In this document: in pieces, positions 42,338-48,079 of the stretch | Layout of the letters: every line of letters starts with the position of its first letter | How positions within the stretch are numbered: the first letter of the stretch is position 1 | Assembly: GCA_020431405.1 (NCBI GenBank) | Contig: JAGQIK010000052.1 | Span: 1 to 62,848, forward strand | Direction: 5' to 3' | Origin: Myxococcales bacterium | Lineage (GTDB): Bacteria; Myxococcota_A; Polyangia; GCA-2747355 | DNA: 62,848 bases | Program-made: the position numbers and the translations under genes | Notes under the pieces: model-generated | The model's input: the letters and a program-made list of their open reading frames with translations, nothing else | Told to the model about the DNA's origin: nothing | The model's database searches: none

Positions 42338-43222
42338 TCATGGCCTGTGCCAGTCGCGCAGGAAGATGGTCAGGAGCTCGTTGCGCGACTTGGCGCCCAG
42401 CAGCTCGAGGACCTCGGCTTGCAGCGCCTTGACGCTGTGAACGCTGAGCGACAACAGCTTGGCGATGCTCGCTGCCGATCGATTGAGCAACATGTAGTCG
42501 AGCACGGTGCGCTGCTCGTCCGAGAGGCCCGCCGACCTGGCGACGTGTTCGCAGCGTGCGCGCGCTAGCGACGCGACGACGTCGGCGCGCACGTGGCGCA
42601 CGCGCACGTGGCAACACCAATCCAGTTGCGTCGCGGTGAGGCTCTTGTAGCGCTCGGTCTCTTCGTCGAAGTAGACCACCGGCGTGTTGGCTCGCGCCGG
42701 GCATCGCGAGCAGGGCGACGTTCTGCCGAAGAGGACCTCGTGGCAGGACTCGCCGGCGAGCTGCTCGATCTCGACCCCGCCGACGGACACGCGCACCAGG
42801 CGCCCGAAGTCGGCTGCCGTGGTGGTGACGAGATAGTCGATGTCGGCGGTGCGCGCGTCGGAGGGTCTGGGGATCGGCTCGCTGCGCTTGATCGTCACCA
42901 GCAGCGCGCTGGCGAGTATGCGCATCTCGACATCGATGCGCAGACGACGTCCGCGCCGGGGAGCGAACGGCAGCTGGCAGCGCGTCACGACGCCCATCAA
43001 GCCGGCGGTAAAGATCTGTCGGTCGGTGCTGCGTCTTTCGGGCAGCGAGAAGACGCCTGGCCAGCGCGTGCCTTCGATGTCTTCGCGGTGAGCGCCTGCG
43101 ACGCCTTCGAAGGCCTGATTGGCCAACATGATGGTGTGGTCGGTCGCGAGGATGGCCACGGGGTTCCTGTCGCGCTCGACGAGCAGTCGCAGCGCGACCG
43201 GCACCGTCTCGACTGCACGCAT
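42338..43222 (-). CDS. PAS-LuxR transcriptional regulator with cysteine cluster
   Basis: The 294-residue protein has an N-terminal PAS-like domain (NPVAILATDHTIMLANQAFEGVAG). A central segment has the motif CHEVLFGRTSPCSRCPA near residue 160-176, with three Cys in the pattern C-x(10)-C-x2-C-P. The C-terminal LuxR HTH is LSDEQRTVLDYMLLNRSAASIAKLLSLSVHSVKALQAEVLELLG. The cysteine motif (GxxCxxxxxGrxxPCxxCP) occurs after PAS domains in other sensors and may respond to redox or bind metal. It is a paralogue of the 43319-44230 protein, downstream on the same strand with a 96-base gap. Confidence 0.87.
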   Translation of the reverse strand: MRAVETVPVALRLLVERDRNPVAILATDHTIMLANQAFEGVAGAHREDIEGTRWPGVFSLPERRSTDRQIFTAGLMGVVTRCQLPFAPRRGRRLRIDVEMRILASALLVTIKRSEPIPRPSDARTADIDYLVTTTAADFGRLVRVSVGGVEIEQLAGESCHEVLFGRTSPCSRCPARANTPVVYFDEETERYKSLTATQLDWCCHVRVRHVRADVVASLARARCEHVARSAGLSDEQRTVLDYMLLNRSAASIAKLLSLSVHSVKALQAEVLELLGAKSRNELLTIFLRDWHRP

Positions 43223-43279: not shown

Positions 43280-43322
43280 TTGACGATGCGCGCGAGCGCA
43301 AAAAAAGATTCGTTCGCGTCAA
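43280..43322. repeat. Extended inverted repeat between paired PAS-LuxR genes
   Basis: TTGACG (43280-43285) and CGTCAA (43317-43322) form the outer arms. An inner GCGAGCG/CGTTCGC pairing with one wobble encloses an A-rich loop of 12 bases containing seven consecutive A. It overlaps the last codons of the upstream paralogue and lies about 60-100 bases upstream of the 43222 start. It may be an operator for one of these regulators or an RNA structure; it does not have the layout of a normal intrinsic terminator. Confidence 0.4.
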
Positions 43323-44230
43323 ACAAACACACGGAGCAGATCGAGGCGCGACTCGCAGCCCAGTTTCGCCAGCAGATTGGACTTGTGGTACTTCACGGTC
43401 CGTTGGCTGATGCCGAGCTCCGCAGCGATCTCGGGCATGGACAGCCCCCGAACGAGCGTCGCGAGAATCTCGCGCTCGCGCGGCGTCAACCCGGCTTTGC
43501 TGACCGTAGCGTCGAATCGCTGGTCGAGCAACGCGCTCGCTTCGTCGTCGCCGACGAGACGTGATCGAACGCGCGAGCGGTGAGCCTTTCGCTCGACCAC
43601 CTCGCTGATCCGGTAGCGTTGGTTGTTCGAGTCGTAGCGGGCCAGCGGGCCCGAGGCGATGGGACAGCCTTCGCACGGCTGCTTGCGACCGGCGAGCACG
43701 TAGTGGCAGCGTTGGCCGACGAGATCCCCTCGCGCTGCGCCGTCGACCACCACGCTGAGCAGCGTGCCGAAGTCGTCATCGTCATGTGTGACTTCGTACT
43801 CGAGCTCGGTGCTCTGCTCGACGGGCACGCCACGACGCGTGTGTACCTGGTCGACGGCGACGACGATGTTGTCGCCCATCCTCGTGGCGACGATATCTAC
43901 GCGGGCCGTGTCTTCCGCGGAGCACAGCAGGGCGGGCGAGCTCACCGTGGCGTCGTGCGGGACGGCTTCGAACGTCGCGGCTGTCGGCCTCCACGGGCTG
44001 GTGCTGCAAAAGAGCGAGAACCCTTCGAGCTCCTGGCAGTTGCGGCCGATCAGCGCGGCCATGGGCGGGTTGATCGCCACCACCTGCAAAGACGTGTTGA
44101 AGATGACGACGGGCTTGGGGTCTCGCTGTACGAGCGCGTGCAGGAGCGTGTCACGTGATTGCAATGATAGATCCCAGGTTCGCCTAGAAATATTGTAGGC
44201 GCTGAGAGACAGAAGTGTAGTGTGAATCAC
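43319..44230 (-). CDS. PAS-LuxR transcriptional regulator with cysteine cluster (paralogue)
   Basis: The 303-residue protein has the same plan as the 42338 gene product. It has a PAS-like start DPKPVVIFNTSLQVVAINPPMAALIG, the Cys motif RCHYVLAGRKQPCEGCPIA near residue 172-190, and a C-terminal LuxR HTH LTPREREILATLVRGLSMPEIAAELGISQRTVKYHKSNLLAKLG. The HTH is closer to the LuxR consensus than that of its partner. The start is uncertain: GTG 44230 opens the frame, but alignment with the paralogue suggests initiation could be at a TTG near 44164. It is divergent from the operon 44379-48079, with 148 bases between. Confidence 0.87.
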   Translation of the reverse strand: MIHTTLLSLSAYNISRRTWDLSLQSRDTLLHALVQRDPKPVVIFNTSLQVVAINPPMAALIGRNCQELEGFSLFCSTSPWRPTAATFEAVPHDATVSSPALLCSAEDTARVDIVATRMGDNIVVAVDQVHTRRGVPVEQSTELEYEVTHDDDDFGTLLSVVVDGAARGDLVGQRCHYVLAGRKQPCEGCPIASGPLARYDSNNQRYRISEVVERKAHRSRVRSRLVGDDEASALLDQRFDATVSKAGLTPREREILATLVRGLSMPEIAAELGISQRTVKYHKSNLLAKLGCESRLDLLRVFV

Positions 44231-44378: not shown

Positions 44379-45419
44379 GTGCTGCAGTACCAGACCCGCC
44401 TCGCGACGCTCAGCAAGCTAGTAAACGCTGTAGACATCAGGACCTACGAGGCGCGCGACGCCGATCTGGACGCGCTCGCGGCGCAGGTTGGCGACATTCT
44501 CGACAGCGCCCTGGCGGTGCTCGACGAGATCGTCGCGGGCGCCGACGCCTCGGATGAGAGCGAGTCACTCGATTCGCTCGAATTCGACCCGGGGGCGATG
44601 ACCCCCACATCGTATCTCTCCTTCGATCGTGCGGTGGATGGTGCCGTCCGCCGAGAGATCAGGTCCACACGCGCCGTCGGCGAGATCGCATTCATCGCCC
44701 AACTCGAGCTGCAGCAGCGCAGCCAACGGCTGGCTTGGGGTCGCGCGCAACGCCGCAAGCTGGTCGTCCTCGCCGAGTGTGACAGCGCGCTGCGGCGCGT
44801 GCTCAAGGCCGCCAGCGCGGTAGACACCGCCGTCGCGCGCGCCTTCGGCGGCGCGCCGCAGCAGCGCTTCGAGTCGGAGCTGCAGAGCTCGCTCGACGTC
44901 CGAACGACATACGCGCGGTTTCGCCGCGCCGTCTATGGCCATCAAGCGCTGCCCTTGCTCAAGCGCTTGCGCGCCGTCGGCACCGAGATCGCCGTGCTCA
45001 TCGGACGCGCGACATATCCCCGAATGCGCGTCAGAGATCGACTGCTGATGCGCCAGCTGCAGTCGCGCATCCTCGAGTGGCTGCGCCACTACGAAGGCCC
45101 GCGCAGCGAGCGCGACGGAACGCGGCTGTGGCAGGACATCTGCGGCTTCGTCGACATGCTGATGCAGATCAGCAAGCGACAGGAGCTCGTAGAGCACGAC
45201 CGCGAGGTGGCCGCCCGGCTGCGCGCCGAGCTGGCTGCCTCGGGCGGCCGACTTTGCCCCGTTAGCGAGCTGTCGCCTCTCGAGGGGCTCGACGCGTCTG
45301 TCGACGATCTGCTGGCTGGCGCCGATGCGATCTCGGCCGCGCAGCTCGTGTCGCTGCTCGATGGTCTGTTTGGCGCAGACGACATGACGCCACCGCAGGC
45401 GTTGAGGTTTTGCAGCTGA
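44379..45419 (+). CDS. Hypothetical helical protein, first gene of signalling operon
   Basis: A soluble 346-residue protein that I do not recognise. It is mainly helical and rich in Arg, Leu, Ala and Asp. It has an acidic stretch near residue 55-70 (DASDESESLDSLEFDPG), a possible coiled coil around 105-145 (IAQLELQQRSQRLAWGRAQRRKL) and an amphipathic C-terminal third. No signal peptide, membrane helix or enzyme motif is visible. GTG 44379 is the only reasonable start. Its TGA overlaps the next ATG by one base, so it is coupled to the PATAN-like gene. It may be the input or scaffold component of the operon (inference). Confidence 0.75.
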   Translation: MLQYQTRLATLSKLVNAVDIRTYEARDADLDALAAQVGDILDSALAVLDEIVAGADASDESESLDSLEFDPGAMTPTSYLSFDRAVDGAVRREIRSTRAVGEIAFIAQLELQQRSQRLAWGRAQRRKLVVLAECDSALRRVLKAASAVDTAVARAFGGAPQQRFESELQSSLDVRTTYARFRRAVYGHQALPLLKRLRAVGTEIAVLIGRATYPRMRVRDRLLMRQLQSRILEWLRHYEGPRSERDGTRLWQDICGFVDMLMQISKRQELVEHDREVAARLRAELAASGGRLCPVSELSPLEGLDASVDDLLAGADAISAAQLVSLLDGLFGADDMTPPQALRFCS

Positions 45420-46621
45420 TGATGCCGCTGAAGCAGATGATCGGAGCAGTCGAGCGCGAGGCCACGGGCGAGTTCATCTGCGTCACGAGCCTCGCCGAGG
45501 TGCACGTGTACATGCAGTCGGGTCGCATCGCGTGGGCGACTGATTCGACGCATTCACTCGCGTTCGTCAAGCACCTCAAGTGCACGACGCGCCTCGACGA
45601 CGCGACGCTGCGCGATGTGTTTCGTGATTGCCGGCGCGAGCGCCTGCCGCTGGGAGAGACGCTCGTCAACCGCGGCGTGGTTAGCTGGGATGACGTGCGC
45701 ACGGCGCTGTGGCACCAGATCGCCGGTGCTCTGTCCGTGTTGTCTACGCTGGAGGACGGTGAGACCGCCTTCATCGATCGCACCTACAACGTCTACGATC
45801 AGCGACTGACGTTCTCGGTCCACGAGCTGCTGGCTGCCAGCGCTGCTGCTGCCGCTGACGACGCGCCGTCGCCGCGCGCACTGACGCCCATCGACAGCGA
45901 GGAAGCGGCGCTGGTGGCGCGCGTGGCGCGACAGCTGCGCAGCCGCGTCGCTGCCGTCGAGCTCTTCGATGGCAACCAGCTGGTCGAAGCAGCGCCGGTT
46001 GCCAAGCAAAGAACACCGCCGCTGCTGGTGCAGACGATCACCGAGCGCGCGCACTTGCTCGCGGCGCGAGGGTCCTACGGCGCGGTGGTCGGCATACGGT
46101 CTAGCGGCCAGCGCTCGCTGTGGTGCCACCTGCTGTCCGACGACGACTACATCATCACGGTCGGTACGCTGGCCTCGATAGTCGACCTGCCGCAGCCTAG
46201 CGGCGGAAGCGGCACTTCGAGCCCGTTGACGGACATTGTCGCGCCCAGCGACGCCCGGCTCGACCGCGAGCTGCAGAGCTTCCTGCGCAACGCCGATGAA
46301 GTGGCAGCGCTGCTGATCGTGGGCGAGGACGACGAGGTGATCGCCAGCTACACGCGCGAAGCGGTTGACCCGCGCGACTGCATGGAGCTGGCGGTGCGAC
46401 GGCGCAACTGCCTGGCGGTCGCCAGCGCTGGGCGCGCCGACGCGTTCGCGCGCATCGCGACCCGCGAGGAGACGTTCTGGATCCTCGGCACCCGAACGGG
46501 GCTCTCGGCGAAAACGACGGCCTGGCTGTTCGTCGACGGCAGGCTGTCTCAGGGGATGGGCTGGGCATACTTGGCGGCGCTGGCGCGACTTCTCAACGTG
46601 CAACCACGGGAAGATAAATAG
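45419..46621 (+). CDS. PATAN/DUF4388-like signalling protein
   Basis: The 400-residue protein has an N-terminal PATAN/DUF4388-like domain: TGEFICVTSLAEVHVYMQSGRIAWATDSTHSL, then LGETLVNRGVVSWDDVRTALWHQIAGAL and TAFIDRTYNVYD. A second segment of similar style lies near 165-245. The C-terminal 120 residues (LQSFLRNADEVAALLIVGEDDEVIASYTRE...FWILGTRTGLSAKTTAWLFVDG) resemble a roadblock/LC7-type fold. Such proteins link GTPases, receivers or motility systems in Myxococcota and Cyanobacteria. ATG 45419 overlaps the upstream stop; a TTG at 45410 is an alternative. The stop overlaps the ATPase gene start by one base. Confidence 0.78.
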   Translation: MMPLKQMIGAVEREATGEFICVTSLAEVHVYMQSGRIAWATDSTHSLAFVKHLKCTTRLDDATLRDVFRDCRRERLPLGETLVNRGVVSWDDVRTALWHQIAGALSVLSTLEDGETAFIDRTYNVYDQRLTFSVHELLAASAAAAADDAPSPRALTPIDSEEAALVARVARQLRSRVAAVELFDGNQLVEAAPVAKQRTPPLLVQTITERAHLLAARGSYGAVVGIRSSGQRSLWCHLLSDDDYIITVGTLASIVDLPQPSGGSGTSSPLTDIVAPSDARLDRELQSFLRNADEVAALLIVGEDDEVIASYTREAVDPRDCMELAVRRRNCLAVASAGRADAFARIATREETFWILGTRTGLSAKTTAWLFVDGRLSQGMGWAYLAALARLLNVQPREDK

Positions 46622-47334
46622 TGGTCCTAGAGCTCTCCGATTTCAGCCTACGCGTGGACGAGCGCCTCGTCGCCGATCAGGTCAATCTCCGGCTGCCTGC
46701 GAAAGGGCTCGTGGTGCTCACGGGCGAGCGCGGATCGGGAAAGACCGCGCTGCTGCGCTGTCTGGCCGGTTTCGACTTGCGAGGTCAAGCCGACGTGGGC
46801 GGAGCCATCACGCTCGAAGGTCGGCCGGCAGCTCGCGACGAGCTTCGATCTGTCGCAGCGTACGTCAGCGAGCAAGCGCCGCCGCTGTCAGACAGCGTGC
46901 GCGACAACCTCGTATCGGGGATCGCCGACTGGCGCGAGCTCGGCTACGCGCAGTGCGTTGCAAAAGTGCGCCGGCACCTGCTTCGACTGGGGTTCGCACG
47001 TATCGCCGGCGCGTTCGAGTCGCCGTTGATAGCGATGCCTCTCTTCGCTCAAACGCAGATAGCGATCGCGCGTGCTCTGCTTCGCGATCCGAGACTGCTG
47101 CTCGTCGACGGAATCGCCGACTACGTCGAGGACGACGAGCTGCGCCAGCTTGTCGAGTTGCTCGACCGCGAAGCGTCTTGTCGCGCGGTGCTGTTGGCGA
47201 CAAGGCACGTGCATGTCGCCGCTGCCATGGGGGGCACGCGCTTCAGCATCGCAGAAGGCCGCGTGATCGCGGCTCAGCCGGTGCGCACGCGTGAGCCCAC
47301 GGCGCAGCTGACGGGGACGTGCGATGGGCGCTAG
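46621..47334 (+). CDS. Degenerate ABC-type ATPase without permease
   Basis: The 237-residue protein has the ABC ATPase layout. Walker A is GERGSGKT (35-42), the Q loop Gln85 lies in YVSEQAPPL, and the switch His196 lies in ATRHV. The signature LSGGQ is replaced by LFAQT (141-145). Walker B ends LLLVDG, with Gly164 where the catalytic Glu should be, and the D loop is lost. It should bind ATP but hydrolyse it poorly. The region VRDNLVSGIADWRELGYAQC resembles PstB-type importers. No transmembrane partner is encoded nearby. Start GTG 46621 and the 11-base overlap with the kinase gene show tight coupling with signalling proteins. Confidence 0.85.
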   Translation: MVLELSDFSLRVDERLVADQVNLRLPAKGLVVLTGERGSGKTALLRCLAGFDLRGQADVGGAITLEGRPAARDELRSVAAYVSEQAPPLSDSVRDNLVSGIADWRELGYAQCVAKVRRHLLRLGFARIAGAFESPLIAMPLFAQTQIAIARALLRDPRLLLVDGIADYVEDDELRQLVELLDREASCRAVLLATRHVHVAAAMGGTRFSIAEGRVIAAQPVRTREPTAQLTGTCDGR

Positions 47335-48079
47335 TCGTCAGCGCGCGACCTCCGAGGTGCGCGAGCGTGCAGCCGTCAGCTCGAAGGATCGCAATCTCGC
47401 GCACAGCCTGATCAACGTGCTCTTCGTCGTTCGCACCTCGTGCGCGCACATTCGATCGGTGGCTGACGACGACGAGCGCATCACGCGCGAGCTCGACACC
47501 GTCGAAGGCACCATCGCGCAGGCGACCGAGCTGATCCGCCGCATGCTCGGCGCGCGCCGCGACGACCGCGTCATCGACGTCAACGAAGCGATCGAGGGCT
47601 GTCTGCCGCGGCTGGAGCGGGCGTTGGGCAGCCAGATCCAGCTGCAGCTCGGTCTGTCCGAGGTCGACGACGTCGTGATGGACGGCCTCGAGCTCGAGCA
47701 CATCGTCGTCAACCTGCTGGTCAACGCCCGCGAAGCGATGCCGGAGGGCGGTCGCGTGTCCGTCTCGACCAGCCAGCGCAACATCGACGTGCCTCGCGCA
47801 CGGTCACTCGGCGTCGAGCCCGGCCGCTACGTCGTCATCGAGGTGCGCGACACGGGGCACGGCATCCAAGAGAACCTGCTGGAGCGCATTTTCGAGCCCT
47901 TCGTCACGTCCAAGCGCGACGGCTCGGGGCGAGGCCTCGGCTTGAGCAGCGTGTGTGACGTGCTGCAACGGCAGGGAGGCGTGCTCGTCGCCTCGAGCGC
48001 GGTGGGCCGCGGCGCCAGCTTCGAGGTTATTCTGCGAGCAGCTCCCGCGGAAAGCGCCCGCGCTTCCTACGCGTGTTGA
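47324..48079 (+). CDS. Soluble histidine kinase
   Basis: The 251-residue protein has a short DHp region with candidate phospho-acceptor His in LAHSLINVLFVV (about residue 27), where most kinases have His-Asp or His-Glu. A complete HATPase domain follows: N box VNLLVNAREAMPEGG, G1 DTGHGI, F box IFEPFVTSKRDGSGRG and G2 GLGLSSV. No sensor domain is present in this chain, so input must come from partner proteins such as the PATAN-like protein or the degenerate ATPase. It is the last gene of the four-gene operon and overlaps the ATPase gene by 11 bases. No response regulator is adjacent. Confidence 0.9.
   Translation: MGASRQRATSEVRERAAVSSKDRNLAHSLINVLFVVRTSCAHIRSVADDDERITRELDTVEGTIAQATELIRRMLGARRDDRVIDVNEAIEGCLPRLERALGSQIQLQLGLSEVDDVVMDGLELEHIVVNLLVNAREAMPEGGRVSVSTSQRNIDVPRARSLGVEPGRYVVIEVRDTGHGIQENLLERIFEPFVTSKRDGSGRGLGLSSVCDVLQRQGGVLVASSAVGRGASFEVILRAAPAESARASYAC

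Follow-up and report, generated by a model that had tools for sequence, protein, structure and literature searches.

What kind of system is encoded by four overlapping genes on contig JAGQIK010000052.1 of a Myxococcales bacterium (assembly GCA_020431405.1), within a window of 62,848 nucleotides? The genes, here designated A (44379..45419), B (45419..46621), C (46621..47334) and D (47324..48079), all lie on the plus strand, and each was scored as a gene by codon-based gene calling. A preliminary description, made from the sequence, reported overlaps of 1, 1 and 11 bases at the A/B, B/C and C/D junctions, which the open reading frame coordinates confirm; for B, a longer listed frame starts at a TTG at 45410, and it is the ATG at 45419 that gives the one-base overlap. 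The products were described as a helical protein of unknown type, a PATAN-like protein, a dead ATP-binding cassette (ABC) ATPase without a permease, and a sensorless histidine kinase, and this inventory holds for A, C and D and is incomplete for B. Sequence comparison shows a conserved module comprising PAS-LuxR genes, A, B, an ABC-phosphatase, small Roadblock proteins, and an MglA-family GTPase, of which A-B-C represents a derived version. By the same comparison, the window copy has neither the phosphatase domain nor genes for the small Roadblock proteins and the GTPase, and it has a histidine-kinase core, D.

Conservation was followed through 41 A loci examined by six-frame profile searches; the same genome is present in two collections, so that some loci are listed twice, and duplicates were excluded from counts. 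In four other genomes (L028, L029, L032, and L055), A, B, C, and Rob1, a 134-residue Roadblock-like protein, are encoded in identical order on one strand, and because this order is repeated, the linkage of A, B, and C is not attributable to chance. The window A and B are nearest to the clusters L028/L055. After C, relatives encode one or two of these 134-residue Roadblock-like proteins and then a GTPase of the MglA family, the profile of the cluster GTPase family matching MglA (3t12) at 1.7e-45, and several clusters add a metallophosphatase or a ferredoxin-reductase-globin protein. At L031 and L039, A adjoins the ABC gene with no B between, while A, the ABC gene, and Rob1 lie within a few kilobases in other orders or orientations at L036, L037, L041, L047, and L064. 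A was matched in 20 of the 241 genomes of the class, and also more distantly within the phylum and in metagenome-assembled genomes (MAGs) of Acidobacteria. A and Rob1 co-occur in 16 of 20 genomes (Fisher 7e-14) and Rob1 is present in all 22 class genomes that have a full ABC-phosphatase protein, genomes that in neither case are phylogenetically independent.

A second subtype of cluster (L082 and L083, with L081 similar) groups genes for a histidine kinase, a receiver-PATAN-Roadblock protein, Rob1, a B-like protein, the GTPase, (a metallophosphatase), and the ABC-phosphatase. The organism carries this subtype on its own contig C269 (L006, L091, and L092), in a slightly different order and without A. 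Since a histidine kinase is grouped with module genes in L006, L082, and L083, histidine kinases do join such modules. C269 carries the single Rob1, the single intact ABC-phosphatase, and the single cluster GTPase of the genome, and C322 a canonical MglA/MglB pair. Across 22 genomes (for example L072, L073, L074, L077, L079, and L085), the ABC-phosphatase fusion and the 134-residue Rob1 form a conserved two-gene core, for which no description was found and which often has neither A nor B nor a GTPase in its vicinity; at L036, L039, L071, L076, and L078, a ferredoxin, FNR-like reductase, or globin-like protein is encoded beside the pair.

At the A-B-C loci, the relatives of C are proteins of 448–460 residues that join the ABC ATPase, in a single chain, to a dual-specificity phosphatase whose loop reads HCxAGLGRTG. 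C itself is a 237-residue ABC-type ATPase domain (ABC_tran match 5e-11) from which the phosphatase domain is entirely absent, and it scores about equally (91–98 bits) against the ABC-phosphatase proteins of L089, L071, L028, and L055. The Walker A motif GERGSGKT (46723..46746) is intact, but in Walker B (LLLVDG, 47095..47112) the catalytic glutamate is replaced by glycine, a change unique to C among 25 cluster ABC proteins where the motif is readable, and in the H-loop (LLATRH, 47191..47208) the switch histidine, invariant in nine aligned relatives, is arginine in C only. In this copy, C therefore looks catalytically dead, as judged from these motifs. No LSGGQ signature is present in C and none is clear in any aligned ABC sequence, and hence even the intact ABC-phosphatase proteins are unlikely to be ordinary transporter ATPases; no partner permease is encoded in the operon and none was identified in the annotated clusters of relatives. 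At L087 (8262-9478) and L088 (8150-9319), the ABC and phosphatase parts are separate adjoining genes, a precedent for the splitting of the two domains. An anti-phage defence system would find in C a generic P-loop similarity to MADS and Septu ATPases and nothing more, and the PADLOC models gave no hit to A, B, or D, so that a role in defence is hardly credible.

Loss of the catalytic residues and phosphatase domain of C would also be expected of a decaying copy, with an intact module on C269 and a window copy that, having lost its phosphatase domain, Roadblock, and GTPase genes, is drifting with D as a chance neighbour. The degenerate H-box of D (described below) and the P-loop of the C269 GTPase, which is degenerate too, point in the same direction. 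Against decay stand the four open frames with their overlapping junctions and good coding scores, the intact Walker A of C and catalytic and ATP-binding (CA) domain of D, and the lack of an A gene on C269, the window A being the only one found in this genome. Decay is thus considered quite unlikely.

Roadblock proteins control small Ras-like GTPases, and both are best known from eukaryotes. B (400 residues) was described as PATAN-like, and its N-terminal residues 1–140 (45419..45838) do contain a marginal DUF4388/PATAN match (Pfam PF14332, residues 16–140), at 25.1 bits against a cut-off of 25 and with relatives at 23–26 bits. This is incomplete, however, as the C-terminal third of the protein (residues 276–400; 46244..46618) is predicted to be a Roadblock/LC7 domain. 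An AlphaFold2 (AF2) model of B (pLDDT 71, from an alignment of four sequences) comprises the PATAN domain followed by two alpha/beta units, and all of the top 50 VIA rows for residues 276–400 are Roadblock/LC7 proteins, C-terminal domains of Rag-type GTPases, or related longin proteins, with Z values of 9.9–13.3; MglB (Z 11.2; Foldseek 1.9e-4) and MglC are among them. The Pfam Robl_LC7 model does not detect B by sequence. Rob2 and the receiver-PATAN-Roadblock proteins match the B profile at positions ~282–402 (3e-8 to 5e-6), whereas profile–profile comparisons gave no match between Rob1 and MglB or between B and either of these, the alignments being very shallow; what supports the assignment is hence the model of B together with the chain from B to Rob2 to Rob1. 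The predicted Roadblock domain places B in the class of small-GTPase-binding proteins. The middle unit (residues 160–254; 45896..46180) is probably a degenerate Roadblock copy with a Roadblock/longin fold, judging with low confidence from the order of its secondary structure.

D is a CckA-type transmitter core of 251 residues (dimerisation and histidine phosphotransfer plus CA domains; HATPase_c match 3e-21), and it is sensorless in that its open frame has 255 codons with nothing N-terminal of the core; nearly all of the 41 other matches to D in the genome sit in much longer frames or kinases. Its closest solved structure is CckA (PDB 5idj, 8e-19). Alignment shows the phosphorylated histidine and the ATP-binding motifs of the CA domain (N, G1, F, and G2 boxes) to be kept, but the H-box, H27-S-L-I-N31 (47402..47416), reads HSLIN where most relatives have HDFNN, and departs from the consensus H-[E/D]-x-x-[T/N]. 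In HisKA proteins, including those of Myxococcus xanthus, kinase activity depends on the acidic residue that follows the histidine and phosphatase activity does not, whereas the threonine or asparagine four positions after the histidine is required for phosphatase activity alone (PMC3510030). Because HSLIN has lost the acid and kept the asparagine, D is predicted under this rule to be biased towards phosphatase activity, and may work only as a phosphatase.

A gene-neighbourhood search for the four families together found A, B, and C in unchanged order in four further genomes, so that the refuting condition named in the preliminary description fails for three of the four families. D stands beside A-B-C in this genome only. 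Two loci carry kinase-like genes nearby. At L065, in a SZUA-265 MAG, a sensorless kinase of 247 residues (HK65) lies between A and Rob1, and was rejected as an ortholog of D, which scores better against hybrid kinases; at L035, A and a receiver-LuxR gene are followed by a CA-only fragment. Two-component genes beside A show no significant enrichment overall (10 of 39, with about nine expected). On these grounds, namely its absence from the other A-B-C loci, the lack of a specific relationship to HK65, and the lack of enrichment, D is regarded as a local recruit. A search for a cognate receiver of D with the receiver-LuxR protein of L065 returned generic receivers only.

These results bear directly on the model of the preliminary description, a sensor complex of A, B, and C whose degenerate ATPase, on binding ATP, switches on D, which then phosphorylates an unlinked response regulator. 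The overlapping genes favour it, as do the intact phosphorylated histidine and ATP-binding motifs of D, and there is a parallel in the actinobacterial conservons (AGPS; CvnA-D, with accessory CvnE/F), in which sensorless kinases are paired with accessory proteins, one of which stimulates its kinase (PMC13343842). The lost H-box acid, the absence of D from all other A-B-C loci, and the lack of two-component enrichment near A nevertheless make the model unlikely. The preliminary description was right to look for a signalling module of several proteins, to which D is a local addition; the proposal that ATP binding feeds the kinase is supported only in part, and may run the wrong way round given that the H-box has kept its phosphatase asparagine and lost its acid. 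It was also overlooked that B has a Roadblock domain and that C has lost its phosphatase domain, as were the connection with MglA-type GTPases and small Roadblock proteins and the presence of two PAS-LuxR genes upstream.

Both of the latter lie on the minus strand. PAS-LuxR regulator 1 (43319..44230; 281–303 residues; GerE 7e-19), divergent from the operon, carries the cysteine motif CHYVLAGRKQPCEGC, and PAS-LuxR regulator 2 (42338..43222; 294 residues; weak PAS and GerE matches) carries CHEVLFGRTSPCSRC, the common form being C-x3-[LI]-x-G-x3-PC-x2-C with small variations. Genes of this type lie directly upstream of A at L028 (two), L055 (two), and L029 (one), that is, at three of the four A-B-C relatives, and by this recurrence they belong with the module. 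The two neighbours are the only full-length members in this genome, in which the two remaining matches are LuxR domains, one beside a second B gene on contig C164 and one near the C269 cluster. Their position next to the operon would suit an ordinary two-component system in which D pairs with a PAS-LuxR protein or an orphan receiver and A-B-C is unrelated cargo. A domain scan, however, found no receiver domain in either PAS-LuxR protein, and elsewhere A-B-C is conserved with PAS-LuxR genes and without D, which makes such an arrangement very unlikely. On C164, the second B-like PATAN protein is encoded convergently with a receiver-LuxR protein (L005; G000:C164:7552-9361), whose LuxR domain ranks next in relatedness to the window PAS-LuxR genes.

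Protein A (346 residues) is represented by one gene in this genome. It has no match in a Pfam and NCBIfam scan, and its AF2 model is all helical (pLDDT 87.6). Searching the PDB with A gave nothing significant, and the best Foldseek hit had an E of 0.48. VIA matches are to common helical bundles (talin, vinculin, catenin, and histidine phosphotransfer proteins), all at noise level, and fold homology is not claimed; residues 165–266 match CheA P1 with a Z of 9.8, which is within helical-bundle noise, and the conserved H273 falls outside that match and is phenylalanine in L039. Beside A at L030 (6578-7900, minus strand), a PATAN domain is fused to an apparent sigma-54 activator with a C-terminal helix-turn-helix region.

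The reading tentatively favoured, at somewhat less than even probability, is that the operon is a rewired arm of a Roadblock/GTPase module. B would act as a scaffold, its Roadblock domain binding the MglA-family GTPase and the small Roadblock protein from C269 and its PATAN end, together with protein A, holding the other parts, and C would be an ATP-binding, non-hydrolysing structural part of that scaffold. Sensorless D would take its input from A, B, and C, and would act on an unlinked receiver mainly as a phosphatase, or else as a weak kinase activated by its partners; foremost among possible receivers are the receiver-PATAN-Roadblock protein of C269 and the receiver-LuxR protein of C164. 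The two PAS-LuxR proteins probably regulate transcription of the operon. Several points weigh against the rewired-arm reading. A stands alone at most of its loci and is without assigned function, the phosphatase-only view of D rests on a single motif, and the confinement of D to this genome and the rejection of HK65 as its ortholog count in the same direction. The window operon is also without an MglA-family GTPase gene, and the C269 GTPase (G000:C269:12741-14408; L091/L006_g01) has the P-loop GKM for GK[ST], in view of which the system as a whole may be atypical here. The same GTPase has an altered G3 motif, unlike its relatives. On contig C211 (L100; G000:C211:4513-4770 and flanks), a Roadblock protein is encoded between a histidine kinase and genes for protoglobin-like and metallo-beta-lactamase-fold-like proteins.

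A bolder extension, which must be regarded as doubtful, is that the module represents a conservon-like class of G-protein signalling in Myxococcota (with A also in Acidobacteria), in which A and the PATAN-Roadblock scaffold link MglA-family GTPases to an ATPase switch of the ABC type, as a rule fused to a protein phosphatase, and in which the phosphatase role has here passed from the ABC-linked domain to a phosphatase-only D. To our knowledge, bacterial Roadblock/GTPase modules of known function are few, namely MglAB in polarity and the conservons. In the recurrent module, Roadblock proteins and an MglA-family GTPase are brought together with an ABC-type ATPase, a protein phosphatase, and two-component parts, and the swap in this genome, a phosphatase domain lost and a histidine-kinase core gained, is open to test.

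Among known systems, D shares its transmitter core with CckA/VirA-type hybrid histidine kinases but is without their PAS domain, membrane part, and receiver, and has HSLIN in place of HDFNN. C is, among the proteins compared, nearest to the ATPase domain of the ABC ATPase–dual-specificity phosphatase fusions of myxobacterial clusters, from which it differs in lacking the phosphatase domain and the catalytic glutamate and histidine. The literature searched, with incomplete coverage, contained no description of the A family, of the ABC-phosphatase/Roadblock pair, or of either the A family or the ABC-ATPase/phosphatase protein next to mglA, and this bacterial signalling module, centred on a Roadblock protein, is apparently undescribed. 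PATAN genes are on record as occasional neighbours of mglA/mglB (PMC4316618). MglA/MglB-type modules resemble the present one in the Roadblock domain of B and in the MglA-family GTPase and Roadblock-like proteins of relatives' clusters, but the window operon has no GTPase and adds the A family and the ABC-ATPase/phosphatase protein. Conservons combine a histidine-kinase-like protein, a Roadblock protein, a GTPase, and an accessory protein in a similar logic. Relative to the CvnA-CvnB-CvnC-CvnD layout, the window operon lacks a GTPase gene and nothing in it matches the CvnC type (DUF742), and it is therefore not a member of the conservon family; it also belongs to another phylum, D has no membrane part, and A is all helical, whereas a GAF domain is among the keywords for the accessory system (PMC13343842). 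In the logic of their parts, conservons nonetheless offer the nearest working analogy for this module.

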